Shown here in pieces: positions 1 to 64,000 of a stretch of DNA of 64,000 nucleotides. The stretch comes from Dryococelus australis. Taxonomy: Eukaryota; Arthropoda; Insecta; Phasmatodea; Phasmatidae. Every line of letters begins with the position of its first letter. The stretch's first letter is position 1. The stretch spans positions 210,112,709 through 210,176,708 of the forward strand of contig CM057009.1 in assembly GCA_029891345.1 (NCBI GenBank), written 5' to 3'. Position numbers and translations under genes: made by a program. The notes beneath the pieces are model-generated. The model was not told the origin of the DNA and made no database searches. It saw nothing but the letters and a program-made list of their open reading frames with translations.

Positions 1-129
1 CGGGCAGTGCCTCATCGCCTCGAGTCAACTAGGAACAAATTTAAAAGACTGAAAATTGAAGGTCCGATTTAAAAACTTGTAGTGTATTTCCCACAACGAT
101 AAAGTCAATTAAATAGCTATCTTCCACCT

Positions 130-560
130 TCTTGGCCAAATTTGCAACATCTATATATTGTCGCGTATATTTTTTTGATATCAAATTATTTGTATTCTAT
201 AAACCCTTTGTATAAAATCGAAGAAAATATCTTCTTGGTATCGATGGTTTCCATAAAATCCATCAAGAAAACACCTGCGAAAAACATCGCCAAATACAAC
301 TTTAATTCTACATTGTATTTCCTATATTCTAATTTTAACGTAGGTTTAACGGAAATTATACTTTCTTCGAAAGGAACTTCACCGATACGAAATTCTCTCT
401 TTTTTTTTTTTTAATCAACATTCTTACACTTCGACGCAGTATTTTGCTGTGTTTAAGAAAGATTTTTTGATTTTCGATGACCGGTTGTAGTAGTTTATAC
501 CTATCGCATAGTATGGATAAAATCAATTCGTTCGTATCCGGCACTATCTTAAATCTTAAC
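130..560 (-). pseudogene. Unknown degraded viral-type ORF with poly-A frameshift
   Basis: On the minus strand one coherent frame runs from about 560 to 400 and a second from about 410 to 130. They meet exactly at a run of 13 T on the plus strand (400-412), so the gene looks like one reading broken at a homopolymer. The downstream part ends in a hydrophobic stretch (LYLAMFFAGVFLMDF), possibly a membrane segment. No family recognised. The plus-strand ORF over the same bases is low in charged residues and is taken as a shadow. The 5-prime part also differs from host repeats in codon texture. Moderate-to-low confidence. Confidence 0.35.
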
Positions 561-779
561 TGCAGTGATAGGTATTCGGAAAAATGACAGGGAACGGAAA
601 GAGATAATGTAGGGATAAGTCAGGCAACATCTATCGCATTCGTAATACAAATATTTAAATTTTTGATAACATTCTTTAAAGTGTTCGAATTCATTTCAGC
701 AATAATTGGCATTTATCTCATACGGGTGCACTATATAACCATTTTCGTTTTGCTAACATTCGGGTTGTAGACAGTTTAT

Positions 780-1571
780 TTGGCTTTTAGGAAGCCTGTG
801 CTCACATTTGACGATTTCTGGTAATCCATGATTACAAACGATGTAGGCATCTTTCGCCTAAGGCGATCTGATTTTGTTCAATTTGTCGACACAAACGTTG
901 CCAATATCCCTTTCCATCCTAATCGCATCATTGTTCGTATGGCACGCGGTGCCATAAAAATTATATTTTTTGGGCGTACTTCCAAAATCCATTTACGATC
1001 GCATCTCATATACATATCTTCGAGTTTTTTGTATTTATTTGCGGATTCGGAACCACCGATGTTCATAAAGTTGCAATACTGTTCGTACGTTATGAAATCG
1101 ACTTGGTTAGGATTACTTCACTCACTGTACATCAACTTCAGGCCTTCTGAAATGCTCAGTTTCGGGGAGATCGACGCAAATATTAGGGGAATTAAATCAC
1201 CACGTAGCTGGATTTTATAATCCGTCCCGACTTTGACGAGTTTCGGTGAAAGTGGTTGCGTGTGACTACTTTTGAGCCATTTTTGTTTCTCTAAGTTCCA
1301 TCCCTATTCGTGAGGTGTTTTGTCTGTTTCGCTGATAAAATTCACCTCGATTTTCGAGCTTTCTGCATTCTCTGTGCCCGTCGCAAAAACTTCGCACTCA
1401 CAATACGTATTCGTTTTACACAAAGTCACAAATTTAAGTTTTTCATTTTTGACTAGGTTCAACCTAAACAAATATTTACCCGATTTCACGGATCGTATTT
1501 TGGAGTTTTCGCATATAGTAAAAACAAATACACCAAAAATATTACAAGTGATAATACTGCTTCAACAATGA
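780..1571 (-). pseudogene. Unknown degraded viral-type gene
   Basis: A single minus-strand frame stays protein-like from about 1571 to 780, interrupted by stop codons near 1304, 1125 and 878. Its composition is balanced (K, E, N and hydrophobic residues) with a Cys pair (YCEC) near the start. No motif that I can name. At least 260 residues. Because the three stops lie in one frame with no shift, this looks like point-mutation decay rather than sequencing indels. Function unknown; assigned to the integrated virus only by neighbourhood. Confidence 0.4.
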
Positions 1572-1801
1572 TGCTAATCGAGTAGGAATGCATCATTGCA
1601 TTTCTTTCTCTCTCACACATTCTCTCTTAGGGAACAAAAAATTGTAATCAAAGGATTGCTTTCAAAGCCAATGTATTTTATTCATACCAGCCAATATCAG
1701 CTGCTTCAACACAAATAAAATTGTCAAAATGACCACCCATGCAATAAGGTACCAGACTATATGGCTTCCAGTTCCGATGGTAATTGGACCATTTTGCCAA
1801 A

Positions 1802-2523: not shown

Positions 2524-3233
2524 ATGTGCGCAAAAATTGTATTGGTATTATGCGATGACAACAATTTCGATATTTGCCAATCGATCGATAATACTTTGGA
2601 CATTATTTTTTGTGCGCATAATCCTCGTATTTCCTTGTTTGTTTTTTCCCGTTAAATGTTATAAATCAGAAGCGATGGTGAAGATGCCGATTTGGTTGGC
2701 GATTCCATATACGGTGCTATAAGAAAAGGATTTTGCAATCAGAGAATCGCCAGCAGAGACGAAGACGATCGCAAACTGGCCGATAAAAGAGCAAAAAAAA
2801 AAAGAAAATTCACAAAGAAGAGGCGAGCGCAAGGTATCGCAGCCATTGATTTTTACTCCACTTTAATTGACAAATGTAAAAACGAATTTTACGGAGCCAA
2901 TCATTTCATCGCGACTTTGGCAAAAGACTTTAAAGTGGTGCTGTGGATGGCGGTCAACGAGGTGCACGCGGAAATGTTTATCGAACAGTTTCTGCAGGCC
3001 AATAAATTTGCAAAATTTTGTACGGGTTGCATAGAGAAAGGAAATCGGTATCTATCGTTCGCCAACAACTTCTGATAACTACGGGCCCGTACATTTTAAT
3101 AGACTATTCGGTGCATAATTTGAATACGGGTGGTTACGACATACCGTTCGACGTTAAAAAATACTGTTATGTACCAAACACGAATAATGAAAAAAAAAAA
3201 TTAATTTTTCAATTAAAACTCATTACTCCATGA
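2524..3233 (+). pseudogene. 38K: 38K-like nucleocapsid phosphatase (HAD/FCP1 type), broken
   Basis: The frame starting at ATG 2524 continues past two in-frame stops (near 2657 and 2666) to 3075. The reading then shifts frame (in the overlap from 3018) and ends at 3233, about 236 codons in all, shorter than the roughly 300 residues usual for baculovirus 38K. HAD-like features: a motif I block IDFYSTLID (2845-2871), a motif II-like block FKVVLWMAVNE, and a final acidic motif ILIDYSVHNLN (from 3093) followed by GGYDIPFDV. 38K is a core nucleocapsid-assembly protein of baculoviruses and nudiviruses that resembles CTD phosphatases. In both acidic motifs an Asp expected in active HAD enzymes reads Tyr. 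The family assignment is from motif spacing and is fairly firm. Confidence 0.62.
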
Positions 3234-4150: not shown

Positions 4151-4264
4151 CATTTTGGGAAAAACAATGATGAAAGATCTTATGCTATTGTTTTTTTTTC
4201 AATGTCTTTTTTCAATTAGTTATGCAAGACAGCCACTGAGAAATCATTAAAAGAAACAAATCAC

Positions 4265-4330
4265 GACCACTGTGGGTATATATAGAATGGTATCAGCCAA
4301 GACAAATCACTCACTTTCGAGCCAGCACTT
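4265..4330 (+). promoter_or_regulatory. TATA-type promoter upstream of the [FL]QGF gene
   Basis: A TATATATAG box at about 4277 is followed, roughly 30-40 bases on, by initiator-like CA sequences (AATCACTCACTTTCGAGCC) just before the coding region at 4345. Spacing suits an RNA polymerase II core promoter. Inferred from sequence only. Confidence 0.4.
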
Positions 4331-4344
4331 TATCAGCATACAAA

Positions 4345-4878
4345 TTGTTTTGTAATCTGCAAGGATTCCATGATAACAATGGCGAATATGTGCTAAAGGA
4401 ATTGGCCGTCACCAACATTGATGGTTTCTCTGAAAGGTGGCTCTTCAAATCTCCGTATCCGTGGAAAGCATTGGATGTTGTAAGTAAAAAGACAAGCTAT
4501 TGGCTAAAGGAAAATATTCACCAATTGGCGTGGCAAGATGGCGAAATTCCACATGATGAAATTGAAAGGGAAGTATTTCAATTGATAAGGAGCCATTAAA
4601 ACAAATATATAATATTTGTTGCGGGCTCACATCTAATAAATTGGCTAAAGAAATTGTGCCAATTCTATCACTATCTCGAAATTGTGGAATTTAATAAAAC
4701 TTACAAATGCCCTTCGTTTAAGACTCTGGTAGCTATATATGGGAATGTAGGCCATTATGATTTTTGGAGACACATTTGTAGATTTATGTATGCAGATAGA
4801 AATTCGAAATTATTGCGTTTGTGGTTCCGCGATAATGTAGTGACAAAATGGGAAGAATTCCAACAACAACAAAATTGA
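4345..4878 (+). pseudogene. Invertebrate [FL]QGF-type protein (possible DEDD-exonuclease-like domain), broken
   Basis: Two adjacent readings (4345-4599 and from about 4602 to 4878) together give some 178 residues. Motifs in order: LQGFHDNNGEYVLKELAV, the block FKSPYPW, WLKENIHQLAW, a hydrophobic strand, KCPSFKTL, and ADRNSKLLRLWF at the end. This order is familiar from a widespread, poorly characterised family in arthropod and other invertebrate genomes; an exonuclease-like fold is my guess, not shown. There is a stop/frame change at 4597-4602 and no ATG at the 5-prime end, so this copy is decayed. It may be viral or host; a second member lies at 30235. Confidence 0.5.
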
Positions 4879-6329: not shown

Positions 6330-7061
6330 ATGTCGTTGATAAGAAGGGCTCTTCAGTTGTCAAAAAATGAGAATTTTGACTTTTGGATTTTCGTGGTCGG
6401 CGATAATAACGGCAATGAGAAATTATAGTTCAAAGGGAAATATATTGCTTCATTTCTCCTATATAAAAAACCATGTAGTGCAATTATTAATTTGGTCACA
6501 CAAAAATGGAAAAGAACATGGGCAGATGTGAAGGGATTGGCCCTCACCCATGAAACCCCTTCTAATTGGCAACAACATACGATGTTCATCAATAAAAAAG
6601 GATTGAATTTATTGATACAAAATTCGAGAATACCCACATGGAAATTCCTGCTACGAAAACTGATCAAAGAATTCAACTTGAAACTGAATCTCGTTTCGAG
6701 AACAAAGGAACAAGATTACATTGTCGTAATTGTAAATTGTTTCAAACATCTGAACTACAAATTACAATATACAATCAATAATTACAGAATAGATTTGTTT
6801 TTTTTTTATTACAAAATTGCATTCGAATGCAACGAATATAATCACAAATACAGAAACATTGAATATGAAATCGAACAACTAAAACACATCGAGAAAAAGC
6901 TAAATTGCACATTTATCAGATTCGAACCGGATGCTGAGAATTTCAATGAGCATGATGTTATAAACACTATTGTTGAATTGATAGAACAAAGGAATTTCAA
7001 TGTATACAATGTTATCAATACTATCATTCGAATGATTGAACAAAAAAAAATATGTCATTAA
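6330..7061 (+). pseudogene. bro: BRO-N protein with C-terminal nuclease-like domain, one stop
   Basis: ATG at 6330 starts a 243-codon frame broken only by TAG at 6426-6428. The N-terminal part carries BRO-N features (FDFWIFVVGDN, ALTHETPSNWQQHTMFINKKG, a GLNLLIQNSRIP helix). The C-terminal part reads YRIDLFFFYYKIAFECNEYN, then LNCTFIRFEPDAENF, the pattern of a restriction-endonuclease-like domain seen attached to BRO-N in some insect large DNA viruses. BRO proteins bind DNA and affect host chromatin and transcription. The ATG follows a TAAAACCATT leader word. Downstream, duplicated pieces of its 5-prime end lie at 7119-7230. Confidence 0.68.
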
Positions 7062-7779: not shown

Positions 7780-8200
7780 CCTACAAATGCTCCCATTAAA
7801 ATTCGATTTCCCACAAGATTTCGCCAGAGGGCTCCACGATCGACGTCCCACCTCCTACTTCCGGTAACCAATAACCTTTTAGTATTTCACTTCCCCTCTC
7901 TTCCCTTGTTGCAGTTTGGGCTATATGGTGGCGAAACTTGGAAGCATCACAACTCCAAGAGCAGAAGAGGAATAAGGAGTAAGTATAATAATTATCATTA
8001 TATGTAAGGTATATTGATAATGTTACATTATTATAATTCCTCTGTATTCCTTTTCTGCTCTTGGAGGAGGAGAGATGTTTCCACGTACAGCTCTTGCCTT
8101 CGACTGATGTCTTTTTTCCAGATTTTGCAGCCATATAGGCCAAACTGAAAGGAGGGGAAGAAAGGGGAGGTGAAGTATTGCAACATGATTGCTATTTTAA
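7780..8200. repeat. Foldback (palindromic) repeat, copy A
   Basis: The left arm (about 7790-7985) ends in CTCCAAGAGCAGAAGAGGAATAAGG; the right arm (about 8035-8200) starts with its complement. Both carry the words CTATATGG/CCATATAG and TTCACTTCCCCTC/GAGGGGAAG. About 50 bases of AT-rich spacer separate the arms. It belongs to the same family as the ladder at 24.2-26.6 kb. No transposase is present, so it is most like a foldback or MITE-type host element. Confidence 0.7.
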
Positions 8201-8300
8201 AGTAGAAGTGGGGGGAGAGGGTAATGTCGATTATAACACACACAAGTGGGTTATCTCGAAGCTAATCCATTTTTATTAAAATGATTTTTTTTATAATTCA

Positions 8301-10493: not shown

Positions 10494-11325
10494 ATGAAAT
10501 TATCAAAAGTGAAGACACTCGAACGAAGCGGTCTATTCGTCATCGAATAACTCAAACACACATATTTAATTTCTTGTAAATATCCATATAGAAATAGCGA
10601 ATCTAGGCTGATTGAATTCCTTCACATTCCACGAGGATATGCTGAAAAAAAGGAAAGTAAGGATTTTGCTGCCTGTCGTGAATATGTCGAGGAAACACAC
10701 AGTGTTCCGTGCAGCGAATGCTCAGTCGACTTTAACATATTCGATCTGTACTGGTACGATAACGATACTTGTTGGAAATATCACATTTTCGTCATGTTTG
10801 CCGACAAGGTGAGACCCATGAAGAACAGGTTTTGTTTGATGGCAAATGTCTGCGGTCAGGTGGAAAAATCAGTTCTAGATTCCTTTAATAAACATCCTAA
10901 AAAAATTAAAATAAAAATCCTCATAACAATGGCGATGAGAAAGGAAATAACGATGGTGGCAATCTTATGGATGCCATTAACAATAGTGAAAAAAAAACTA
11001 ACTTGGAATTACCAATGTGTCGAGAGAACGAATTGAACGTCTACACCATCCCGCAAATGTTTTTACTAAATGATTTCGAGCGTAACAGAGTGTTGAAACT
11101 ATTTGTGAAAGAGTACATCAAGTGGTTGTTGAATTTTCAATTGCACAGATACAATGAAAATAACATATACTTTGATTTCTTTGAATATGTACAAAACTTG
11201 TTGAAAACAGATAGTTGTAATTTGACAAAGATTTTTGTAAACTTGCACGAAATATATTTTGTAGATGAAAATCCAAATAACATTGTCAAGAAAAAAAAAA
11301 GGATATCTGAAAATAAAAATCTATA
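10494..11325 (+). pseudogene. Nudix hydrolase, broken
   Basis: ATG at 10494 opens a frame with one stop (TAA near 10548) that then reads to about 10900. It contains a textbook Nudix box from 10635: G-x5-E-x7-R-E-Y-V-E-E, where only the Gly near the end of the box is replaced (His). After an A-rich frameshift near 10900 the reading continues from 10967 to 11325 with a helical C-terminal part. Nudix enzymes hydrolyse nucleoside diphosphates linked to another group; baculoviruses and other large DNA viruses carry such genes (ADP-ribose pyrophosphatase or decapping roles). It starts 30 bases after the LEF-5 zinc ribbon, on the same strand. Confidence 0.7.
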
Positions 11326-11963: not shown

Positions 11964-12542
11964 ATGGCGCTCATTGTTCCTGCATGGTTCAAACATCAGT
12001 TGGTCCACGGTAGTGAAGAAACAGCTGGGTACGACTTGAAGAAAACTCACGACATTGAAATTCAACCAGGTCAAGTGGCCAATGTCAATGTCGGCCTGGC
12101 ATGTAAAATATCCGAAGGTCATTTCGGTTTTGTTACTAGTCGTTCGGGGCTGGCATTGAACCATCAAATATACACCTATAATAGAATTATAGATTCAGAC
12201 TACAGAGGAGATATCTTTGTGCAGCTGGAAAATCAAGGAAATTCAACATTCAAAGCCGAGAAAGGATCTCGTATAGCTCAACTACTCATAATGCCACAAA
12301 TGATAGTATCGTTTGTACCGACAGATGAGAATGATGATGCATTTTACAATATATGGCGAGGCACCTCGGGATTTGGATCCTCTTCATCACCACCACCAAA
12401 ACCTACACCGACACAAACCATCAAAGTGAATCCTGTGGTCCATCGAGATAAACCCATCTGGATGCAATTTTCCTTTCCCGAACAGCATCACTTGTCGCCG
12501 GCCGAAATGCAAGAGTATTTGTTGAAATCAAAATCAAAATAA
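11964..12542 (+). CDS. dut: dUTPase (trimeric type) with Pro-rich C-terminal extension, intact
   Basis: Start chosen at ATG 11964 (context GCCATGG), giving 192 residues; the frame is open 54 bases further upstream without need. All five motifs of homotrimeric dUTPase are present: AGYDLK, SRSGLAL, IIDSDYRGDIFVQLEN, KGSRIAQLLIMP and RGTSGFGSS. The catalytic Asp of motif 3 is kept. dUTPase converts dUTP to dUMP and PPi and keeps uracil out of DNA. About 55 residues beyond motif 5 form a Pro/Thr linker (SSPPPKPTPTQT) and a tail with no known domain. One of the very few long genes here with no lesion. Confidence 0.93.
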   Translation: MALIVPAWFKHQLVHGSEETAGYDLKKTHDIEIQPGQVANVNVGLACKISEGHFGFVTSRSGLALNHQIYTYNRIIDSDYRGDIFVQLENQGNSTFKAEKGSRIAQLLIMPQMIVSFVPTDENDDAFYNIWRGTSGFGSSSSPPPKPTPTQTIKVNPVVHRDKPIWMQFSFPEQHHLSPAEMQEYLLKSKSK

Positions 12543-12638
12543 AATAAGGATTTTAAAAAACTATAGTTACTTTCTTTTCTCATTTAACCCATTCTCTCTC
12601 TATATATAAGGATTTACTCCACACACATATAAGGAAAT

Positions 12639-12995
12639 ATGGAATATTTAATACATAATGACAAAAAAATTTCGTTTCTTTTAGACAAGGATGATAAACA
12701 GTGGTTTCGAGGAAAGAATGCGGTAAAAATGTTGGATTATAAGGATACTTGCGATGCCATTCAGAGACACGTTCCCGTAAATGAACGGGCAAAGTACAGA
12801 CAACTCGTATAATCAAATAGTTTACCATTGTCGAGCTATCATGGAAATTCGAGAACCATTTTCTTAACTGAAATAGGCCTATATAATTTGATTATGAAAT
12901 TGCGATTGTCGACTGGAAAAGATTTCAAGGTTTGGGTAGTGCATCAAATTCTACCGACAAAAGAACTTCAGTTTGAAAAGCAAAAAATTATGTAA
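12639..12995 (+). pseudogene. bro: BRO-N domain protein, one in-frame stop
   Basis: ATG at 12639 follows a TATATATAAGG element (12600) by about 35 bases. The 118-codon frame is BRO-N from end to end: ISFLLDKDDKQWFRGKNAVK, MLDYKDTCDAIQRHV, RTIFLTEIGLYNLIMKLRLS and FKVWVVHQILP. The only lesion is TAA at 12810-12812. No C-terminal domain follows. BRO-N is a DNA-binding domain common in insect large DNA viruses. Confidence 0.72.
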
Positions 12996-13045
12996 GCAAC
13001 TGGAGAAAAAAAATGATTATATAATCATAAGCTTTTTGCAAAGTT

Positions 13046-13868
13046 ATGGAAAGAAAAGATAAATCGGTATTTATATATATTTTACTTGTTTTCTTACTAT
13101 TCATTGTTCAGGTTTCCGTTCGCATATTGTTGGTGTACAGGCGATCCAATCATGCAATTATATCTAGAATCTGGGTTGACTGGTTTAGAAAAACAACCGA
13201 CCGTCGTGTTGAAGGAGAATGTGAGTGCAGATGATGGCGAAAAAGGCGACGATTTGTTTCTACAAAATAAATGCCGATTCGGTCATTACCTAGGCGAAAA
13301 AACGACCTGGTTTCTTGAACCTTGAGTTGTAACAACAACAATGGCGAATTCGAATACAAGATCTTTCCGGCCCAAACAATCATCAATCACATGTATCGAG
13401 GTGCCTACTGTATACCTTCAGAATCAGCCGCTCATAAACCCTATCTGGGTAAAAAATTTATGTGGATGACAAATACATTTGCCTTCCATGCCATCCGCAC
13501 TTGTTTGGAGGGATCGGTTCCAACCTGTTTGTCGGTTGTAATTGATCGATAGTGGATAGAGTGACGAATACAACATACACCGATATGGTACCCAGCACGT
13601 TTAGGATAGAGGATGTGGACAAAAGTTGGATGATTGTGATTACTGGATCGTGTACACCGAGCTATCAGACACTTTACAAAATCGATTGATTCTGTTGAGT
13701 AATAGATCGTGTTTCGAGTACATGCCAAATAAATGCTGTTCAATGACATTCAATGCACCAAAAAACATGATGCCCGATTACTCCACCAGTATATGTGACT
13801 GTGGCCCGCAAATTTTAAACTTGAATTCTGACCCCAAACTTACATGTACGAAATGCGTTTCGAAATGA
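13046..13868 (+). pseudogene. pif-2: PIF-2-like per os infectivity factor, multiply broken
   Basis: ATG at 13046 begins with a basic residue cluster and one N-terminal membrane anchor (VFIYILLVFLLFIVQV). The reading then passes through several frames to 13868. Cys-containing blocks in order: NKCRFGHYLG, CNNNNGEFEY, a GAYC block near 13410, GSVPTC, a NTTY-FRIEDVD segment near 13570-13620, and SICDCGPQI near the end. Single N-terminal anchor, many Cys and this block order match the PIF-2 envelope proteins of nudiviruses and baculoviruses, which act in the oral entry complex. At least three frame changes and several stops make it non-functional. Identification is by pattern, so moderate. Confidence 0.58.
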
Positions 13869-15082: not shown

Positions 15083-16145
15083 TTACTTACAGCAATGTTT
15101 TTTACGGCATATTGCATATTTGGAATGTGTAAATAGACATTCGATACATGAAATCGAATGACCAGAAGGCAGAAAAACAACCTTCAACTCTCTTTGGTAA
15201 CAAATCTTGCATAAAACCGGATTTTGTTGATCATCTTCATTATCGCCACTGCTGCCGCCACCCACACATTTTTCCAAATCGTTGTTTGTGGAAAAATCGC
15301 CGCTGTTGCCACTCACATATGTCTCCAAATCGTTGTTTGCAGAATTTTCCATCTCCTTGTTCTCTTTTTGTTGAAGCCGTCGTATTTTTCCGCCCCAATT
15401 TTGTCGATGAAACCCTTTCCTTTTGTGAAAAGGAAAAATTTTCATTTGGGATACCAAAAACCATGTTCTATCCAGGGATCGTCTTCTCCTTCCTAATGTG
15501 TAATGTTTTTACCGCAGTGAAACCAAGTCACTTGATCACCGAAACCCATGTTACATAGTCATTTCGGGTCTTTAACTAGATATGGAGGCCATTGCTTTAA
15601 TTTAAACTTTTTTATTCATGCTTCACACATATTGTATTCAGGATAGGCTTGTTGTTATTTGTTGTTTTACAAAAGTTGAAATATGGCATCAACATCGACA
15701 TTATCATCTGTGATGTCGATTTTACATACATTTTTACCATCCACTAAATTTGCAGTCATAATAGGATATATGTTATCCTTTATCAAGTTAACATACAGCC
15801 ATTCAATCATCGAGTAATTATAAATGTATTCTATCCAAGGATCATGTTCTTCCTTCCAGTAATAATATTTGCAGCTGCAATAAAAGCAAATAACTGTATC
15901 ATTGTCCCATGTAAAAGAAGAAACCAGCTTGGCTTAGTTGTTTCGGTCATTGTTTCATCGCCTTGGGCCAAAACTCGTACGTTGTCAACCGCGATTGAAA
16001 CAAATTATATTGGGATACCTCGAACCTATATATTCCACGATACCCGTCTCTTCTAAACACGCTGTTGGCAATCCCATAGATGCAGATTGCACGGCATTGG
16101 AGGGCCATTGCCCATGTTCGTGAAAAGCATACTCGAACTTAACCA
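15083..16145 (-). pseudogene. iap: Inhibitor of apoptosis (BIR, BIR, RING), broken
   Basis: Reading the minus strand from about 16145: a degraded BIR (ends around 15800; NDTVICFYC and EEHDPWIEY), a second BIR at about 15575-15465 (VTWFHCGKNI, EDDPWIEHGFW), and a C-terminal RING in the open frame 15457-15083 (CKICYQRELKVVFLPSGHS, CIEC, then a final Cys pair). Two BIRs plus RING is the layout of insect-virus IAP-3, which blocks caspases and ubiquitinates targets. Lesions: several stops and frame changes; in BIR2 the first zinc Cys reads Trp, in BIR1 the His of the EHA block reads Tyr, and a RING Cys reads Ser. Viral origin is likely from context; host capture is possible. Confidence 0.68.
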
Positions 16146-19950: not shown

Positions 19951-19959
19951 AATTTTATC

Positions 19960-48799: not shown

Positions 48800-51700
48800 T
48801 CGAAGAATTAGGTAATTAGTAATGAGTAATGAAGGGTATAAATAAAATAATCGCCAGCCTGGAGGACGCCATATTGGGTATAAGGTAGGTGTATAGGGCC
48901 AAGGCACAGACCTACACCAGACCGAAACTTCAGGTTGGATCCCACAATGCTGACACTCGGGTACGCACGTAGTGTAGCATAGGAAAAAATTGCAATGTAA
49001 AGCACAAGGCCATCTCCAAGCCAGAAGCTGTACAGAGCCTGCTTTGTCTTGTACTGTGTTCACATAGTGCTTCGCATCATTGTATGTGTGTGTGGGAATT
49101 ATCATGTGACTTACTGGGATAATTTAGGGAAGTTATGGGGGCCAATGAGCCAAAATGCTTTTCGGCCGCTTATATTTTTTAATTTCCTCGGGGCTGGATA
49201 TTTTCGCATTTGCACTGTTTGCACAATCAGTGTAAAATTTTTGTACTAGTTTCATCAAGTGCTTATCCAGTTTTTCAATTTTTAATTCGCGATGCAGATC
49301 TGCAATGTTGCAGTATCAGGGCGCATCTGCTGCTATTCGCAGACATTTATTTTGAATTATTTGGAGGTACCTTGTGTGCATTTTAGCTGCATGTGCCCAG
49401 GTGGGCGCAGCATAAGTTATAATTTGGCGTATTAGCATCGTATACAGTAATACAGCCTTGCTTCGGGTTATGACGCTTCGCGGGTTTAATATAGGTTAGA
49501 GTGTGGATAGCCGGGCTTGTGCTCTGGCACATTTTGCATCTATATACACCTTCCAATTGAGCTTTCGGTCCATATGGACGCCTAACTATTTCACCACATC
49601 TTTATGGGGAATTTGTTCGTCAAATAGAGTTAATTCGGGCCGATTATTCGCCTGGGGTAACTGTCTGCGAGAAGATAATAGCTTCACTTTTTCCGACATT
49701 AATTTTTATCCGCCACTTTGTATAAAAATTTTGAAAATGATTTAGGACATTTTGTTACCTTTTCATTGTTAGTTCGAGATTGTGGGAGCGACTGAAAAGA
49801 ACTGTGTTGTCCGCATAGCACCCAAATTGCACCAGTTGGTGATCAGGTTTCGGTAGGTCATTTATGTATATATTAAATAATACAGGGACTAAAATGCTGC
49901 CTTGTGGCACTCCGGCACAGATAGGTTTTGCGCCAGATTTAGCACCCTTGTATGAAACAGTGAAAGTTATGTGCGCCAAATAGGTGCTTATCAATTTGAC
50001 ATAGCAGTCAGGGAGTTTTATGTCATACAAGTCATATATTAGGTCTGTGTGATATACACGGTCAAAGGCTTTTTTGATATCAAGGAATACTGCAACAACA
50101 TAATATTTAAAATTAAAGGCATTAATAATGTATTCCGTAACTCGTACAAGCTGATGTGTTGTCGAGTGTTTCGATCGGAAGTCAAATTGCTCCTCGTGTA
50201 GTAAGTTATTACTTTCCAGGTGAGAATTTATTCGCCTTAATATAATATATTCAACTACCTTTAAAAGTGTGTTGAGTAGGCTGATTGACTTATAATTTTG
50301 GGGCAGTTTCGTGTCTTTTTCTGGCTTGTGAAAAACAATTACATTCGCTTTTTTCCATATATGGGAAAAAAATTCGAACTTGAGCATTGAATTCACACAG
50401 AGTGTTAAATGTTCAATAGCTAGATCGGGGAGTTTCTTTAATACAATCGCTTGTATGCTATTATCGCCAGGTGCCATTTTAGGCGTCATATTGCGGATGG
50501 CAAGATTAATTTCTTGCAGTTGTGTATATTCTGGTTCGCGTTCTGTGGGCTGCCATTGTTTAATATTTAGTTCCTGGAGAATTATGGCGGTGAAAATTCT
50601 ATCACTGGGTACCTGATTTGACTGAAAAGTGTTTTCGTGCATATTGGCAAAGGCCTGTGCCTTCGCAGGGGTGAAGGCTACACCAGTGGTCGTGGTTAAG
50701 GGTGGAACTTTATCATTTTTGTATAATAGGCACTTGGTTAGTCCCTACAGATTATTCGTGTTTGTATTTAATTTTGCAATTTTCGTATCCCAAACACTAG
50801 CCCTCCAAAGGGCTACTTCATCCGAGATCACTGCTTGCAGCTCATTTATGCGGGCCTTAATTCTGCGATCTTTGAGGCGTGTATACTGGCGCCTTAAGTG
50901 ATTTTTCTGCGTGATAATATCCCGTATGTATTGTGGGAAAGTTTCTAGTTTTGTTGTGATTATTTTCTCTGGAATGTGCTCTGCCGTACTATCATGAATA
51001 GTTTCAGTAAGGACTGAGACTGCTTCGTCAATTAGTGCAGTTGATGTTACAGAAGCGGTCTAATTGCGGTAAATTTTCGTCAATGTAATTTGTAAATGCG
51101 GGCCAATTCGCATGGGAATAGTCTTTATTTTTTCTAGAGGCAGTAGATTCAACATTAAGCGAGTGGAAATCTATATGTACTGAGAAACAGTCGGACAAAA
51201 GAACCTGATCGACCCTGAGGTCGAAGCCAGTACTAAACTGTTTATTTATTACGATATCAAGCACATCAGGGTGTTGATTTCGTTGTGTCGGGTTATATGT
51301 CGGCTCTTAGGGTGTCATAGCCTGATAATTTCGGTTAGTTTGGTGCCTATGCAATAGCACACCATTCGCAGTTCTGGTTCGCGAATGCCAAAACGGATGT
51401 TTCGCATTAATGTCCCCCATGGCTAGTATTACAGGTCCTACATTATTAATTAATGTGTCAAGATCTGCTACTGTAAGAGAGAGCCTGGTGGGGCATAAAT
51501 TGATAGCAGTTTGGTTTTTCGTTGGCCTAATTTAAGTTCAATTCCCACTGCTTCCAGTGTAAGAAAATCTGGAAGTAATATTTAATGATGTATGATTGAG
51601 TGGTGTATAAAAGTTGCAACTCCACCACCTCTGCCTACATTCTGCACACTGTCCCGTCTGTATACGGCATAGCCTGGAACAGAGAATCTATTATTTGGTG

Positions 51701-51960
51701 TAAAGTGTGTCTCGTTTACTGCAGCGATTTTTACTTAATGCCGAGACAAATAACCAATAAATTCGTCCTTTTTGTTACTAAGGCCATGGACATTCCAGCA
51801 GAAAATTGTGTATACGTGTGGATCGGAATTATTTAGTGTAGATGCATTACAGTTGTTTACTTGCATGGTCAATACTCTTGACCATCTTTATGTGGAGCCT
51901 GATTGTCTGTGCAATTTTGTCTTCCTGCGAAAGTCCTGGAGTTGTCCAAACGGCAATCAA
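48800..51960 (-). pseudogene. LINE ORF2, endonuclease and reverse transcriptase
   Basis: Endonuclease remnants at about 51800-51030 (VILAMGDINAKHPFWHS; VLDIVINKQFSTGFDLRVDQ). The reverse transcriptase core is one open frame, 50642-49755: MAPGDNSIQAIVLKKLP, LNTLLKVVEYIILRRI, FLDIKKAFDRVYHTDL, AGVPQGSILVPVLFN and CYADNTVLFSRS. The thumb and C-terminal part are degraded to about 48800. The enzyme would copy element RNA into a nicked host site. In the catalytic YADD box the second Asp reads Asn, so the RT is dead even where the frame is open. Confidence 0.85.
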
Positions 51961-51986
51961 TTGCAATAGAGGCATTAATTCAATCA

Positions 51987-53454
51987 TTAGTTGGGGGGGG
52001 GGGGGCTCAGTTCAGCATCGCTGTTGAATGCAGATTTAATGGCATCCATGATGAAAGGAGCCTGCAGAGGTGCAGATGCTGCATCCATGGGGTCAGGGCG
52101 CGATCTGGCCGTTTGGCCGTTTTCAGGCCTCTTTTGTACAGGAGCTTTGCAAACCTGCTCGCCCAATGGGCGTTGAGCTGTCTCCTGATTGGCCGCGCAT
52201 GTAGGAGCAGCCTCTGGCGCGGCTGGAGCTTCGCTCGTCATGTCCTGGGGAGGGGGGAGGAGGGGGAATTTTTTTGTATTTCCTCATTTTACGCAGCTTT
52301 TTGCCTAGCGCCTGTTTGGATCGCTGGGAATGTAATCATTCGCGAGAGGCGGGAATTCTGCCTCGTTCACAAAATATCCAAACCTATTATAGGTCGGGAT
52401 AGGCTGGGGTCGCGCTTGTTATGCCCAGTGTGGCATAAAAGTGATGTGTGGAGGCTGAAGTGGCGCCTGCTGTTGCCCTGAGGGGGCCTGAGGTGCGGGT
52501 GTTTTACCTGGTTTTACGACATTATTGCGGATAGCCAACTTGGACTGGAACTGGCGCGACTCTCTCTCGTCTTGTGGCAGTCTAATCCACTTAGAAGCCT
52601 TGTAATTATTACACCCGCCGTAATTTGCACAGTGATTGTCCCTGCATTGTGCGCATTTGACTTGTGCTCGATCATTTTGAATACTGCAGGCAGATAAGGT
52701 TATATCCACCACAGTATCTGCATTTAGGTGCCGCATTGCACCCGCCAGTCACATGGCCAAATCGTTTGTATCTTCCGCGCTGTGAAGGCAAAGTCGGGTG
52801 CTAAAACTCTTCCACTTTAATTTGTAGTCCTGCAAAGTTTGCCAGGGCCAGGTAGGGCGCAGGGTCTGTGCCATTTGGCAGTTCAACCACGAGTTTATTT
52901 ATCACGCGGCGATTGCGATCATGGATAAACCACCACCACTGCACTGGCATTCTCGCTGCCGCGAATTCCTCCTGAAGGAATTCCATAGGTGTGTCTGCGT
53001 GGACACGACAGAAACCCAATTTAACCGGGATTTTTTGAGCCTGTCGGAGCAAGCTCTGCTCATATCCCATTTGTTTAACAGTTCGGACCTCGTTGACATA
53101 GTCGGTAATCGTGCTCGTATGCACACGAATGCTTTCTGCTCCAATGCAAACAGCACTCCATGACATCGTAATGTGCGCATCGAGTGCTCTTTTCAAGGTG
53201 GGGTGGTTGTGTGTTTTATTCGTTTACACAGTGAAGGGCTTTATCTGCACCTTCTTAGCAGCTGGCTGCTGCGCAGCGCCATTTTGTGACGCTGTTGTGC
53301 CCTGAGGGGGCTCAGTTGTGGCCGGAGGGGCCTGAAGGGCTAGTTTTTGTGTCGCATTCTGTCTTTTGCCGCTCGCATCTCTAGGCGCCGCTTCGCTGGT
53401 TGGGCGCTTCAAGGACCGTGACTCTGAGTCCATGGCAGCCTCGCGGTCTGCCAT
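51987..53454 (-). pseudogene. LINE ORF1, Gag-like zinc-knuckle protein
   Basis: Frame from ATG 53454 (Ala/Gln/Pro-rich) continues past one stop at 53224 to 52801 and beyond. RNA-binding part: KIPVKLGFCRVHADTPMEFL, then QWWWFIHDRNRRVINKLVVE. Zinc knuckles follow: RFGHVTGGCN, CRYCGGYN, and after a frame change CAQCRDNHCANYGGCNNY. The Pro/Ala-rich tail (52241-51987) ends before ORF2. It binds the element RNA and carries it in the ribonucleoprotein. One or two frameshifts and stops make it inactive. Confidence 0.75.
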
Positions 53455-53889
53455 GGCTTCGCTTGTTGTCGGAAACTACAATTACATGAAATGAGTGGAG
53501 GGGAAATTACAAAATTAAATCTAAATCGCAGTGAAACCTATATGGAAAGTGTTCCTATAGTGTACCTACACCTCTGTTGTTGTGGTGTGCGCCTTCGCCA
53601 AGCCCGCGCCCTCCTATCCTCTCCCCTCTACAGGAGACAAGACCAGAGAGGGGCGGGATACTAGCGCTTGTTTTTTTCCTCAAGTAGAATTTTTTTTTTT
53701 GTATTTGATGGGGAAGCAGTTTAAACCTTTTAGGTAGCCTTGAAAACGGCACTTAACTGTGTCTGGCGTGGTGCTTTAGCACTAAAAAGTGCAAAAGACA
53801 CCTATTCCTCGGAACTCACTGGAGACAGGTCCTTCACCAACGACACCGCAACTCTCTCTCCTGCCATATTTGACCTATTATAATATATT

Positions 53890-54590
53890 TATAGAGTAGA
53901 ATATATATATGTATATATAACTAAAAGAAATAGTCTCTTGTATTTGTTAATTTACAATAATTTGTAGATTAACTATCAAAAAGATGGGATGTGTTTGTAA
54001 AAAAAAAAACAAATAATTAAACAAATTCTTGTAAAGATATCTACTCTGTTTAAAAGCAAAAAAATGTAATTCAATTGATTTAATATTTTGTGCTTCAACA
54101 CCTAGCACTATCTCTAGGCAAACAATTAGTTGTAATAATTAAAAGTTATGTTTCTATTTTCTACTTTAAGAAGCATTTTCCAATAAGCGAACTTGTTTTA
54201 ACTTGTGTAGAATGAACTAATTTACTCTTCATAGTGTAATAGGTTTTATGTAAAAAAATATTATTAAAGATTTTTCAATAATCTGACAATAACATAGGTG
54301 ATAATTGACAATCATTTTACTAGGCATCTGTGAAGGAGATAATTATTATTATGCAAAATATCAGGTTGTGTCCACTTGTTAACATTATTTGGTTCTGTCA
54401 GAGACTTACATTTACTAATCAGTTGACAAATTTACACTCGTTTCTGGCAATCACATGACATGCACGTTTTCAATTGTCAGCATGCACCATAAGGGGGTGG
54501 GGTTTATTCTAAGTCATTTGTTTTGTTTCTTCTCGACACAATTATTCATCATTACTCGAATTTTCGTTTCCAAACGAAAGAAGCAATTAT
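53890..54590. other. AT-rich gap between the two retroelements
   Basis: Low-complexity AT-rich DNA with a short TATATA run (53900-53925). No open frame of interest. A GGGGTGGGG word near 54495 precedes the second element. Confidence 0.5.
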
Positions 54591-54599
54591 AAGTACATT

Positions 54600-56950
54600 C
54601 TAGTGTTTGTTTGCAGTAGAAACACCTATGAGATGGAATGAGGAGGGTGTTGGGTCAGTGCTGGATGTTGTGTTAGTCAGATGTGGGAATGCTGTAGTTG
54701 GTGCAATAGTATTGTATGTTAAAAGCGACCTTCATATCCCGGTTGTGGACATTGGGATTGGCAGGATGAGGGAAGAGCAAACGGCAGAAAGGTCGGTGTG
54801 GCAGTATGGGAGAGGAGATAAGAAGAGGGCAGAATCGGCCTGAGAGACAGGTTTAAAAAATGGTCTATGGAGGAGGGTGTAGGGGGGTTATGGAGGGAGT
54901 TTAGAGGATTAATGGAGGTAATGTTGGAGAAATTTTTGCCAATGAAAAGGTTATGGACTGGGTAATATCTGCCATATTATGGACAGGAGATTTTTAAAAT
55001 GAAGAGGAAGTGCAAAAAATTACATGTCAAGTGGAGAACTGAAGGGATGATATGATCTAAAGAAATGATGAAGCAAATGGGTAGGGAGCTTGAAAGGAAG
55101 AACAAACAGGCAAAGAATGTATTTCTGGGGAATATGATGGAAGAAGGAAAAGGCAATGAATGGGGGAAATTGTTTAGGTATGTTAGTAGATTAAGGGAAG
55201 GAGAGGAAGGGATCCCTCTGCTAACAGGAAGGGTTGATAGGCATGCGACAATTGACCAAGAAAAATCGGAGATTCTGCAAGGACAGTACTTGTCAGTGTT
55301 TGAGGCAAAGGAGAGTTGTAATCGGGGACAAACAGGGTTAGGGGGGTGTTTAGTAAGATAAAGATGAGGGAGTGGGAGATAGAAAAGGTAATTAGGGGTT
55401 TGAAGAGTACTAAGGCAGGGGGTCCAGGTGGGATAGGAAATGCAGCACTAAAGTTTGGTGGCAGGGAGTTGGTGAATTATTTCGAGGTGATGTTTAAGTC
55501 CTTAGCAGAGGGTAAGTTACCACAAGATTGGAAGGATGTTATGGTGGTACCTATACACAAGCAGGGAGAGGATAGGGGGAGGCCTGGTAGCTACATACCG
55601 GTGAGTTTCACATCAAGTATGGGAAACGTAATGGAGAGACTGGTGGTGTAGTGTGTGGTTAGGGTTATGAACAATAGGAATTGTTGGGGGAGTCCCAGCA
55701 TAGTTTCAGGAGGGGATACTCATGTCAAACTCAGCTGGCTGGGTTATCAGAGGATATGGTGCAGGTAGTTGATGAGGGGAAGCAGGTGGATGCCTGCTTC
55801 ATATATTTTGAGAAGGCATTTGATAAGCTGCCCCTTGGGACCTTGATGATGAAAGTGGAGGCGCTGATACCGGACAGGAGGGTAGTGGAATGAATAGGGG
55901 ACTTCCACAAGGGATGAAGGCAGAGGGTGAAAGTGGGGGAGGCAATATCGGAGGAAGAGGAGGTTACGTCAGGGGTACCACAGGGAAGTGTGCTGGGTAC
56001 TTTGTTATTTACTATAATGGTAAATGACATGGGTTTGGGGTTAGGGGAAAAATAAGATTGTTTGCAGACGATTGTGTTGTGTATACTTAAGTGGGGGAAG
56101 GGGACAGAAATTTTCAGTTGGACATTGATAAGATATGGTTGTGGACAAGGACAAATAAAATGAAGATAAATGTAAGAAAAACTAAGGTAGTGAGGTTCAC
56201 AAGTAAGAAGTTGATAAGCAGGGACATGTACAGATGGAAGGGACAAGAGAGAGAAGAAGCAGCAGAACATAAATATCTAGGGATTGTACTGCAGGGAGAC
56301 CTCAGATGAAAAAAAAAACAGGTAGAGAGGCTGGTTGCAAAGGGAAGAAGGGCTCTGGGTATGCTGGGAAGGATGCTGAAGGAAGTCAGCTGTGAGGTGA
56401 AGGAGAAGGCGTATAGCACAATGGTACGGCCAATGTTAGAATATGTAGCAGCAGTATGGAACCCGTATGTGGAGGTGGAGGTGCGAAAACTGGAAAAGGT
56501 GCAGAGAAGGGCAGCAAGATGGGTGAAGGGTAGGTGGAGAAAGCAGGGGCAGCATGATGAGGAAGAAGGAAACTATAGGCCATCAGTGATGATGAAAGAA
56601 ATGGGGTGAAGCTCATTGAAGGACAGGAGGAAAGTTGAACGGTTAGTCAGGATGTACAGGTGGGGTGAATGGATAGGGTGTGTGGGGAGGGCTACACTGC
56701 AATCTAAGTAATGGGGTGTTTAGAGGAAGAGGAAACAACAGTGAGAAACTTCACAGGGTGTGGAAGAGAATGGCGCGAGGTAGGCAGTCCATGCTTGAGA
56801 TATCTGTGAGGGAGTGGAATGTGTTGAGGGAGGAATTGGTATCTGTGAGAGGGGTTGGTAAGTTCAGGAAGGGAGTGGAAAAGGAGTTGGTTGGGTGAAG
56901 GAGAGGTGAGAGAGCTCGCCACCAGGCGGTAGCCTAATTGCGATTGTATG
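54600..56950 (+). mobile_element. CR1/Rex-like non-LTR retrotransposon, 5-prime truncated and broken
   Basis: Begins inside the endonuclease (about 54605-54840), then linker, RT and C-terminal part. RT blocks in successive frames: GLKSTKAGGPGGIGNAALKF (from about 55397), WKDVMVVPIHKQG, FIYFEKAFDKLP (about 55797), GVPQGSVLGTLLF (about 55971), IRLFADDCVVY (56056-56088), YLGIVLQGDLR (56272), then MVRPMLEYVAAVWNPYV (56421) and the RVWKRMARGRQSMLEISVRE tail to 56898. Unlike the neighbour, the FADD box is intact, but frame breaks are numerous. G-rich on the plus strand. Clade call is by motif style, so tentative; non-LTR RT is certain. Confidence 0.8.
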
Positions 56951-56959
56951 TATGCTATC

Positions 56960-57360
56960 ACTCTATTCGCTAAGAAACTCGAAACAAAAACGAAACCCTT
57001 TTAGGTCTTTGTTGCTGAGCTTTATTATAAAAACTTGACCGGTGTGTGAAACCGATTGTTTTTTTAGACTGAGTGCCTTTAGGTATTATACAATCATTAA
57101 AAAAATATTTCTGAAAACTAATTTAAAAGTACCAATTAATCTTTTTGTATTAATTTATGAATAAATTAACCAGCAGTTTAAACTGGCTAATTTGAGGAAT
57201 TTATTAGATTATTGCAGTTGTCTACAATAAAATAAAAGATCATAAACACTAATTTATTTATTTTTAATGCTTTCAGTAATGTAATTCGAAAGTAACCTAA
57301 TAGGTAGTGTTAAACTGTAAATAATTCTTGGTGGTTTACAACCAAAATTCTTTCTCTTGA
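56960..57360. other. AT-rich host-like interval, no gene seen
   Basis: AT-rich DNA with polyadenylation-like words (57226-57235). No frame worth reporting. Confidence 0.5.
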
Positions 57361-60440: not shown

Positions 60441-63400
60441 TTATGTAATTGCGTAGATATTTACCATAATGAATCTGAAACATTTCGGGCTGCGGTACAT
60501 TGTTTTTTTTTTTTTTTGCCTCTGTGGTAATTTGGAATACTTTTCCAAAGTCAAGTATCGATCTACCTGAAATTCTTCGGGATCGTACAAGAGCACCATA
60601 TTCTTACGGCCAATGTAGGAAGAACTGAGACTATCAATGTACCTTTGACGTGCAGATGGGTTTTTGAGCCTAACCAACTTTACATTTTCGTACAATTCCG
60701 TCTGATCCATCAAATAGATGGCAAACAATATATTTTCGAAATTAAGGAATTTTTCCAGTTTATAACAGTTGGTTACTTTGGTCATATTCGCAAAGAAGAA
60801 GGCATGTGCAGCTACATAGTTGTATATTCGTTTCACGAAACGCGATGCAATGCGCTCGTAACCTTTATGAACAATACAACAAAATTTCAACACATATTGG
60901 TTTGAATTACTGCAAAATACACTGTAGTCAATCAGTTTTGTCAAATGTAAGTATTTTTTCTTCACTAGTAAAATAGATGCAAGTATCTCAGTGCTTTCGA
61001 GAACGATACTCCTTCCATTAATTATGTTCATTTCCTCTCTTATGAGTTCGATAAACCTGTTACTGTCCAATTTCAAAATATTTGTAAATTTATACCCATC
61101 GGTATCTGCGTCAAAGACCATTTCACGATACTCTCGCGGAATTTTGCGAACTGCACAGAGTTTCGTCTCGTCGTACACAATCAGTTTTTTATTTGCTTCC
61201 AGATTAGAGTAGGTATCATAGGCATCTTGGCGAATGAAATATACCAACTGCATGAGCTCCTCTTCCATCAGGTTGTTTATTGTTTCTTTGTGATAGCGAA
61301 TCGCAAGCAGTAGATACAGCACGGGTGTAATTCGACATATATGTATGAGAAGTTTGCGTGCAAACAACGTCGTGCCTATGGTTTACGGGAATGCTGACAA
61401 ACTTGAAAGATGGAGTGCCAAAAAGCCTGTAGGTCAATTTGACCGTAATTAAAAACGAAAAGTTGCTTCGCATCCAAAACCGAGTACTCTAGTACTTGTC
61501 TTGAATCCTCTCTTCAGAGATTTTTTTTTTTTTTTTTTTTTTTCCCAGACTTTAGAGATTTCATTTGCTTCTTTGCAGTTTTCCTACGATCGAGTAAAGC
61601 CTCTGTAAAGTTTATAGTGAATGGAGTTTTGGCATGTGAGAGTAAGCGAATTAGAATGGGAGTATCGCCAGCCACAACTAGTTCCATGACGGAAAGTATC
61701 ATGTCCATGTATTCCGAATAATTTTGGTTTTCGTCTTCCATCACATACAGAGCAATTACATCATTCCTCAGCATTTCATCGAACGCGTCGCGGAATATCG
61801 GAGCATTTTTTAAACACTAGATTCAATGCCTTGGCGCAGCAACAACCGACGGTAGATCTGGAAAGTCGTTTGTTGATGATGATGTTTGGGTTGAAACTAT
61901 TGACGTCGTATTGAATAATGTTCCAAAAAAAGACAGTGGATTGCAAACACCCCGGCTCCAGGATATTCTTTTTTCGTGTACTTGAACTTTGGTTTGGTGT
62001 AAATTGGTCTACCGTCCATCGCAGATGTTCTTTCAGCGAGCGACAAACATTTCAGATCAGGTATGGCCAGTAAAACGGAATCATTGTTCTGGTATCCCGG
62101 TAACATACTAAAGGATAATGCATGATACAGGAATGTGTTCGCAATCCGGCGAGAAATGGCATTCATCGAACTGTCTTCGAGACCGCAGTTAAAGAGATTG
62201 GACTGGTGAAAATTGCCAAATTACACTTGTTGTAAATTCCGACTACGGCCACGCAATCCCTCTCGTTGTAAATTAAAGCCTGCTCCATGCAATAGAAAAC
62301 GATAGAGTCTGCATTTGTTTCACCCGCAAGTTTACACCAAACGCTACCACCAACGAACTGGGTGTGGCGCACTTGCATGTTTGTGTATTGAGCGTTCACA
62401 GCATAAATTTTTTTTTGTTGTAGGGCTCGATGTGAAAGATATTTCTCATACACTCTTGACGAAAGTATGTGATGGTGTAATCTAGAATATAATAATTCTC
62501 ATAAACACAGAGTTCAAATCGATTTTCCTAAACTTTTGGCTCAGATAGTTCCCCAACGACAAATTCCGACTCGCCAATGCATTTTTTCTTTTCAAGATTG
62601 TCAACGTATCGAATATGATACCGTCGCGGTGAAAAGAATGAGCGGAGCTGTGGCTAATTTTCCGAGGGTTATAAATGCTTTTGTTTCACGTTGCATATTA
62701 AGAACCCGCAAGAGAGTCAATAGGAATTTCAAATCGTATTTGATAATGTTGTGGCCGAAGAAATAATGTGGGAAATTTTGGTATCCCGTTAACATTTTCA
62801 GCAAGTATCCCTGACTATACCACAAGAGAAAATTAGTAATAAGAACCTCTTCGTGTGAGAAACCTTGGATCCAAATGCATTTCGAGGGCAGTCTTTTGTA
62901 TTTCTTTCGCATTTCCACGTCAAAATCATCAGGCATGCCGCGACATTTAAGGTACGTAATTATACTCACTTCGACATCCAGATACTCAAAATAGAGCACA
63001 AACAAGAACAGTTTTTCTGGAGCGAGACCCCCCAGGGGCAAGTCTTCCAAATTATCCACACCAGTCTTGATGTCGAAGTTTACGACAGGAATGTACTTGT
63101 ACAGATGAGTGTAATCGTAAGACGTGTCCAGGATCAGATGCTTATACTCGGTGACTCAGTACACACCATTTGCACGAAATATATTTTCTACCATGAGATT
63201 ACCGACTCCATGTTTTAGTCTGCGAAACTTTAGTTTTGCAAGTTGATTCAATTTGATGGCTGAATTTTGCAATATCCCCTCTGAAGTTACAGTTTTGATG
63301 TACTACTCCATTTGCAACATGAAATGCACATAAGTCGACTGAATGGTAAAGTAGTATTTTTTTTTTCGCAATTATTTTCCTCGAGAAATTTGTAGACTGT

Positions 63401-63712
63401 GTTCAAGTTACTCGTGGTGAGAAATTCAATTTTTACCAAATGATATTAAACGTACAATGTGCTTGCAGCTTTTTGAGTCAAAATTTCCAGCAACAAGTTT
63501 GAATTAGTTTCCAGAGAGATTGTTGTGTCATCGATTGAATCGATATACAGTTCATATAACTCAATCAATAGTTGGCACATTTCGTATTTCATGTTTTCAG
63601 CAACTAGAAAGTATATCGAGAGGGGGTAAGTCAAGATTTCTTGACGCCTCTTCATCGTTTTGACATCGATGCCCAACACATTTATCTGATTGTTGTAGAT
63701 GAAAGACTTCAA
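60441..63712 (-). pseudogene. dnapol: Family B DNA polymerase, broken
   Basis: Minus-strand readings cover about 1,090 codons, the length of nudivirus polymerases. Exonuclease: VVNFDIKTG near 63080 (Exo I, usual D-x-E reads D-x-K), FGHNIIKYDLKFLL near 62756 (Exo II) and YNERDCVAVVGIYNKCN near 62260 (Exo III region). Polymerase: YDVNSFNPNIIINKRLS near 61908 (motif A, in a frame without Met), a KLTYRLFG block near 61435 (motif B position) and FDADTDGYKF near 61112 (motif C). Open pieces: 63712-63446, 63059-62601, 62453-62163, 62166-61897, 61774-61514 and 61367-60441. A T23 run (61521-61543) and T15 (60503-60517) coincide with frame breaks. It replicated the viral genome. Confidence 0.82.
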
Positions 63713-63754
63713 TGTAAATATTTTATTTTGTAGATTTAAAGATCCTGGAGGGCT

Positions 63755-63793
63755 AAAATTTATTGTTATATAAGAACAAACTAAGTTTTACAA
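63755..63793 (+). promoter_or_regulatory. TATA-type promoter between polymerase and the acidic gene
   Basis: GTTATATAAGAACAAACTAAG ends 4-5 bases before the ATG at 63794; the TATAAG word resembles TATA/TAAG elements used in this virus group. Position in a short divergent gap supports a promoter role, by inference. Confidence 0.42.
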
Positions 63794-64000
63794 TGACCAG
63801 AGTATTGGAAATATTGAGAAATATCTACAACGACCCAGAACTGTAAACTTTGGACGAATTTAAATGGTTTCACACGTATTTTGGCAACAGTCTCTTGGAA
63901 TGCATTTACACTCGCGAAAATGACGATGACAAAGACTCTGACGAAGATTTCGAAGAGGCATTTGATACTGATCTTAATAACAATACTTACATTCTGTTAA
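63794..64000 (+). pseudogene. Acidic ORF of unknown function, cut by the window end
   Basis: ATG at 63794, 30 bases after TTATATAAGA, opens a frame with TAA near 63842 that continues to the end of the window: FKWFHTYFGNSLLECIYTRE, then an acidic run (NDDDKDSDEDFEEAF). It is divergent from the polymerase gene and shares its promoter region. No family recognised; the 3-prime part is outside the window. Confidence 0.45.

Follow-up and report, generated by a model that had tools for sequence, protein, structure and literature searches.

The window analysed here is a stretch of 64,000 nucleotides from the genome of Dryococelus australis (Insecta, Phasmatodea; GCA_029891345.1, contig CM057009.1; G000:C17:210112709-210176708) and lies on a contig of 327 Mb in an assembly of 3,415,067,245 bases and 646 contigs. 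It holds a long stretch of a decayed arthropod virus with PIF genes, broken by stops, frameshifts and insertions of long interspersed nuclear elements (LINEs), and with virus genes decayed and interrupted by transposons within a host chromosome it is an endogenous viral element. Genes were sought with Pfam profiles, whose curated cut-offs are meant wherever a match is called above or below cut-off. Forty picked stop-to-stop pieces were each searched separately, and the remaining listed pieces (at least 48 aa, low-complexity ones dropped) were scanned as alignments that covered 136 of 139 pieces at 1-19 kb, 193 of 229 at 19-46.5 kb, 29 of 87 at 46.5-57.2 kb and 57 of 60 at 57.2-64 kb.

Central to the analysis is PIF-3 (32306..32923, + strand). 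Its two halves, at 32306-32731 (PIF3 7.8e-7) and 32735-32923 (2.3e-6), are both above cut-off, adjacent in the profile and separated by a single in-frame stop. BRO genes are found on the + strand as a 210-aa open piece at 6429..7058 (Bro-N 2.6e-11), a gene with an in-frame stop at 12633..12992 (Bro-N 5.2e-6 at 12633-12809 and 7e-7 at 12813-12992) and an unbroken open reading frame (ORF) of 237 aa at 33694..34407 (Bro-N 2.1e-21 in the piece 33688-34404, DUF3627 1e-7). A dUTPase is encoded by an unbroken ORF of 192 aa (11964..12542, +; dUTPase 7.3e-25 in the piece 11898-12539) and finds its best PDB match in a mitochondrial dUTPase (1.4e-18). Unlike it, a second dUTPase-like gene lacking its N-terminus (22102..22476, +; dUTPase 1.9e-13), which is collinear in other copies of the element, best matches a retroviral dUTPase (POL polyprotein, 2.9e-14). 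An IAP at 15086..15933 (- strand) has a BIR part above cut-off (2.7e-5, 15670-15933) and a RING part below it (4e-5, 15086-15508), and a matrixin metalloprotease fragment lies at 33380..33541 (+; Peptidase_M10 6.9e-6). An earlier note on this DNA had named a broad set of core and accessory genes. PIF-3, BRO, dUTPase, the BIR of the IAP and matrixin are the part of that set which profiles bear out; the helicase, the LEF-9-like RNA polymerase, PIF-2, the DNA polymerase and Nudix give sub-threshold matches only, and for its 38K, LEF-5 and P6.9 Pfam profiles give no support, nor does the PDB for 38K.

Coding signal was also compared with chance. In six blocks (1-7.7, 8.2-19.5, 19.5-23.5, 26.6-36.2, 38.8-43.7 and 57-64 kb) open pieces of at least 100 aa are more numerous than in any of 100 local shuffles. 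Four other blocks do not stand above the shuffles, which reached the observed count in 10 of 100 cases at 36.2-38.8 kb, in 3 of 100 at 43.7-48 kb and in 12 and 10 of 100 in the LINE blocks. A codon model marks 38 coding tracts with 18,178 nt, against 1-6 tracts in 12 shuffles; 12 of the tracts overlap the training pieces and 26 lie outside them.

The segment is not the only one of its kind in the genome. A PIF3 profile search of the assembly gave at least 150 matches on 16 contigs (C1-C15 and C17), the window's own included: from 269 candidates 150 were scored and all 150 matched, every listed one above cut-off, and such counts are lower bounds for large families. Many of the PIF-3 matches listed lack an internal stop, and none of 14 control genomes gave a match. 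Each of the eight loci first returned can be aligned to the window along kilobases, at 80-86% identity, and the window-matching pieces of at least 300 nt from eight copies average 81.8% over 112,719 nt. With 40 further loci, picked for wide coverage and mostly high score, 47 of 48 align with each other and with the window at 81-92% identity. The exception, L039 (G000:C17:170294550-170295500), carries a PIF-3 with 24.6% amino acid identity over 167 residues, a divergence that indicates at least two naldaviral lineages in the same genome. The earlier claim of a decayed part of a virus genome in a host chromosome thus stands in its main part, with PIF-3, the BROs, stops and frameshifts along a long segment, and gives way where it implied a single integration; likewise a long segment did integrate, and a whole genome is not shown in the window.

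The relationships among the copies point to a common and sudden origin. A tree was built from the window and the 47 loci, 48 sequences in all; 96% of its length lies in terminal branches, the median tip being 0.073, and support of at least 0.9 is reached at 2 of 45 nodes. Pairwise differences amount to 8-19%, and no pair exceeds 92.2% identity. Stop positions are private to one copy in 22 cases and found in two to six copies in 11, and 33 of the 36 distinct deletions are private. A star tree with mostly private stops and deletions implies that all copies descend, over a short span, from a single source that was unbroken and nearly uniform. At insect neutral rates this burst would be, roughly, tens of millions of years old. 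Differences are spread almost equally over the codon positions (0.32, 0.31 and 0.38), and the ratio of nonsynonymous to synonymous substitution rates (dN/dS) is 0.57, compared with a mean of 0.75 and a range of 0.57-0.96 in neutral simulations with the same spectrum; the copies carry 1.17 stops on average, against 1.92 in the neutral simulation. A dN/dS at the bottom of the neutral range would suit a lineage of viruses that kept infecting and integrating for a long period, so that each copy caught a different stage of its divergence, and so would the divergent PIF-3 of L039 with its testimony to at least two lineages. A long-lived virus would, however, have left internal branches, which account for only 4% of the tree, and L039 is one locus among the 48 fetched. 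We regard prolonged integration as improbable, though it is the least improbable of the alternatives.

The extent of the multiplied unit was followed in twelve 10-kb neighbours of six copies. These are mostly collinear with the window, at about 82% over long stretches, and show rearrangements besides. Imperfect-palindrome homologous regions (hr) are common in invertebrate double-stranded DNA (dsDNA) viruses according to PMC12548425. Here, self-comparison and alignment reveal a family of imperfect palindromes at four places of the window, at the same places in other copies, with a putative origin function. The first (7953..8220) lies at a point that sampled copies do not reach; the second (19946..20508) is matched in five of the eight sampled copies; an extended block composed of hr-like palindromes together with TA repeats (23468..26615) and the hr-like repeats at 44478..45682 are each partly matched in three of eight. 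A 113-bp tandem repeat (46196..47084) has a partial match at the corresponding position of one further copy. Since the repeats form a family, a single match may hit a sister repeat, and what counts as firm is unique sequence flanking a block left and right. In this respect L055 runs from 30.4 over 26.1 and 24.2-21.0 to 20.7-19.8 kb, L051 and L052 contain the 21-23.3 kb sequence between the repeat blocks, L061 has 43.1 followed by 43.5-45.2 kb, and in L062 the stretches 43.9-44.8 and 46.5-47.9 kb keep their order. The AT-rich blocks of palindromes that had passed for "satellite" DNA, at about 20-26.6 and 43.7-48 kb, occupy matching positions in other copies and are therefore part of the viral unit.

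This result bears on the reading first given to the window, a single old nudivirus integration in satellite DNA of the host. Its accessory genes are of a kind found in the nudivirus AmNV (PMC11019937). Yet it is contradicted by the 150 PIF-3 matches and by satellites that other loci place inside the unit rather than in host DNA, and no gene specific to a family is shown; we give it very little credence. The junctions it placed at 19-20, 26.6 and 43.7 kb are all run through by other copies. More in keeping with the shared blocks is one integration followed by segmental duplication of a host region with its host repeats. The few stops and deletions common to copies would agree with such a course, as would L045 (G000:C8:88878500-88880700), where an inverted duplication around PIF-3 has arms of 607 nt that are 99.7% identical and hence far younger than the burst. 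Against it speak the star tree without any pair above 92.2%, the mostly private stops and deletions, the spread of matches over 16 contigs and the sequences to the left of the window-like stretch in L053 and L054, which have nothing of 200 nt or more in common. Segmental duplication is thus unlikely, and somewhat more so than prolonged integration.

From about 8.5 kb up to its right end, with unsampled gaps, the window belongs to the unit common to the sampled copies. A viral look also marks the first 8.5 kb, which the sampled copies stop short of. Beyond the right edge of the window, similarity to L060 continues in pieces over 6.7 kb or more. On the left side, the adjoining 10 kb (L063), which the other sampled copies do not cover, contain an AAA ATPase gene (4.7e-16), and the flank set gave one Bro-N match (1.5e-5) and one Baculo_E66 match (3.6e-4) among the families listed, 25 of 41. 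Segments have been lost in different ways: L056 jumps from 14.8 to 26.6 kb via an hr-like repeat, a deletion that fits recombination between hr-like repeats, L060 jumps from 36.2 to 62.8 kb, and the window itself lacks about 770-860 nt at 36220..36221 relative to four copies (L057, L058, L059 and L061).

Two LINEs interrupt the window. The first (47950..53933, -), labelled Jockey-like in the earlier note, matches RVT_1 (1.2e-30) and Exo_endo_phos_2 (1e-5) in an alignment where one LINE piece stands twice (86 distinct members of 87), so that the two members matching RVT_1 could be a single piece. The other LINE (54471..57265, +), there labelled CR1-like, has pieces that resemble the reverse transcriptase of the first (2.7e-5 and 5.1e-7), and in the PDB it matches reverse transcriptases of LINEs weakly (0.0063-0.016). 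L062, the only sampled copy that spans the sites, skips both: in it, about 145 unmatched bases separate 47,949 from 53,934, and 22 separate 54,470 from 57,266; both LINEs must hence have entered the window copy after the burst. Clear target-site duplications were not seen at the LINE edges. The RVT_1 match and the empty sites of L062 confirm that LINEs are interleaved with viral blocks, as the note had stated, these two alone being later insertions, and its supposed virus/host junction at 57 kb turns out to be the edge of one of them. That LINEs interrupt one copy and not another also tells against an assembly artefact or virus contamination, as do the differences of 8-19% between copies, their different deletions and their location on contigs of up to 403 Mb. 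Support by mapped reads is lacking, which is the point in favour of an artefact, and we consider it the least probable of the explanations.

Taken together, we read the window as one copy, decayed and interrupted by LINEs, of a large dsDNA virus that became endogenous, belonged to the Naldaviricetes and probably to the Lefavirales, and multiplied in one burst, and we put the probability of this at roughly 0.84. The host genome would apparently be a dense fossil record of a baculovirus-like DNA virus, with about 150 or more sites that date from one ancient burst. Several points weigh against it. No virus/host junction was located with certainty, and P74, PIF-1, PIF-5, LEF-4 and LEF-8 gave no rows among the window pieces scanned. 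The copy number is that of one gene, PIF-3. Two or more copies have 11 stop positions and 3 deletions in common. Fewer stops than simulated and a dN/dS at the lower edge make some purifying selection before or after insertion possible, and both observed values are lowered because the copies picked mostly score high and so tend to be less decayed.

In the history that we propose, one viral genotype with unbroken genes would have entered the germline and multiplied rapidly in a short burst, either because virus DNA integrated again and again or because integrated copies spread in the manner of transposons. Decay under little or no selection would have followed, with loss of segments, in one copy perhaps between hr-like repeats, and the window copy would have taken in its two LINEs. 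A more specific version, for which we see about even odds, is that a lefaviral virus with a unit of more than 50 kb acted as a giant transposon, reaching about 150 sites from one source in a single burst, hr-like palindromes included, with palindrome recombination shaping the deletion forms. No host function is shown for the copies.

As to classification, pif genes mark the Naldaviricetes, and lef-4, lef-8 and lef-9 the Lefavirales (PMC10271883). PIF3 is found above cut-off, with 150 matches in the genome, and PIF2 only at 0.0034; for the order, there is a LEF-9-like Rpb1 domain at 1.4e-4, below cut-off, while the window pieces scanned gave rows for neither LEF-4 nor LEF-8. The genes mark the class and not a family, and the order is probably Lefavirales. 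PIFs are carried by filamentoviruses, AmFV and the LGDV viruses of ants (PMC12548425, PMC10403939). BROs number 17 in the filamentovirus MhFV (PMC10403939) and three in ant LGDV (PMC12548425), and the nudivirus AmNV has BRO, IAP and matrix-metallopeptidase matches (PMC11019937). Because BROs occur in a filamentovirus, in LGDV and in one nudivirus, family placement remains open, and the nudivirus type is one of several options; the core genes seen are few. P47, part of the nudivirus core set (PMC11019937) and absent from Filamentoviridae, AmFV and LGDV (PMC12548425), gave no rows among the window pieces scanned, where distant homologues could escape. The LEF-9-like gene, itself below cut-off, would speak against membership in the Nimaviridae.

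Known systems share parts of this picture. LGDV/AmFV-related elements of ants are likewise endogenised lefaviral viruses with BRO genes and palindromic repeats; Camponotus floridanus has a block of about 100 kb with stops and transposable elements, and Harpegnathos saltator very many loci, namely 1,378 (PMC12548425). The H. saltator paralogs, however, form three clusters with 81-100% identity and relatively conserved flanks and were read as duplications in that paper, whereas here a single star is found and no pair exceeds 92.2% among 48; the ant elements are compared by description only. Endogenous crustacean nimaviruses, described as "giant transposable elements" (PMC10871703), are also naldaviricetes in host genomes with transposon-like spread. 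They lack lef-4, lef-8 and lef-9 (PMC10271883), in contrast to the LEF-9-like gene and BROs of the window, and a recombinase, target preference and defined ends as in giant transposable elements were not found here. Similarly, endogenous nudiviruses are integrated in insect genomes with partly pseudogenised genes, but Venturia canescens has 60 intact nudivirus genes in five clusters, mostly single-copy, against about 150 matches for one gene here (PMC7916170, PMC10542567). The Filamentoviridae (LbFV, MhFV and PoFV), set beside the window by description, resemble it in PIFs, lef genes and many BROs, and Platygaster orseoliae in its many endogenous loci, 139 in number (PMC10403939, PMC10259472).

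Our literature search, which was partial and mostly covered titles and abstract openings, found no description of such a burst, the ant case apart. A star-like burst of more than 100 copies of a long viral unit amounts to sampling a single ancient virus genotype as a population, which makes the gene content and repeats of that virus and the date of the burst measurable. It raises the question how a nuclear virus multiplies in the germline without reverse transcription, and it cautions that virus-borne palindromic repeats can pass for host satellites.

The remaining candidates are below cut-off or without profile support. An RNA polymerase largest-subunit-like gene, probably LEF-9 (16293..17470, -; RNA_pol_Rpb1_2 1.4e-4 at 16886-17245), has the NADxDGD motif and a coding tract at 16293-17189 with one frameshift and one stop; the best PDB match of a piece is vaccinia rpo147 (E 0.012). 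A candidate PIF-2 in several frames (13017..13865, +) matches PIF2 at E 0.0034 (13605-13865), and its pieces 13017-13322 and 13319-13549 have no Pfam match. Near the right end, 60444..63787 (-) holds coding tracts in several frames and motifs, read by eye, that we take to be those of DNA polymerase B; DNA_pol_B_exo1 matches at 0.034 (62604-63155), and five other polymerase pieces lack a Pfam match. A helicase in many frames (39128..43660, +) matches Baculo_helicase at the P-loop (E 0.043, 42724-42930; profile 952-1007 of 1307), with + strand coding tracts that are collinear in other copies. At 10551..11033 (+) the NUDIX profile matches at E 0.077, and a pattern read by eye is presumably the Nudix box. 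Taken alone the PIF-2, polymerase and helicase matches are unremarkable, since the four scans of alignments, with 416 members of which 415 are distinct, gave 38 family rows at E<=0.05 (10, 9, 11 and 8), with several rows falling on one piece, and chance alone would yield about 21 matches; their weight comes from place and company.

A candidate 38K (2665..3230, +; coding tract 2674-3198) owes its unconfirmed label to what we presume to be a HAD-phosphatase-like pattern, and the piece 2665-3072 (+) has no Pfam or PDB match. A conserved-looking ORF with one in-frame stop (4240..4875, +) has a coding tract and a SNaCT8 match below cut-off (E 0.0016, 4600-4875). The P6.9-like Arg/Ser-rich peptide (34658..34927, -) is recognised by the composition of its translation. 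The gene adjoining it (35365..36213, -), a LEF-5 candidate, has a coding tract and longer open pieces in other copies; its piece 35365-36174 (-) gave nothing in Pfam but one chance-level row, and a better-kept relative is likewise unsupported. None of the 38K, LEF-5 and P6.9 families is among the alignment-scan rows of window pieces, the existence of a Pfam model for each being unverified. In other copies, the LEF-9, LEF-5, 38K, PIF-2 and helicase candidate pieces gave nothing or chance-level rows in Pfam (L056:5771-6112 for PIF-2 and L051:1130-1534 for LEF-9 among them, both without match). PDB searches with 38K, polymerase, LEF-9 and helicase pieces also gave nothing or chance-level matches. 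Protein database searches with PIF-3, a 313-aa polymerase piece and BRO gave nothing useful. IMG/VR scans counted one BRO relative and returned two loci, both unrelated to the window, Rfam and tRNA scans of the window were empty, and two single-sequence AlphaFold models had low confidence (pLDDT 36 and 45), the second without a meaningful fold match.

CpG observed/expected ratios have a median of 0.95 in viral blocks (36 windows) and range over 0.25-0.58 in satellite blocks (4) and 0.26-0.92 in LINEs (8). Using this contrast as a map of host DNA between viral blocks was dropped because the low-CpG satellite blocks are collinear in copies. At 1-4000 the ratio is 1.24-1.51, higher than in most other viral windows. 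In L054, Copia-like polymerase pieces read by eye lie at 1-2100, left of the virus part. Finally, an ORF at 59560-60012 with 39/78-bp repeats encodes a repetitive peptide, and this stretch is shared with L062.

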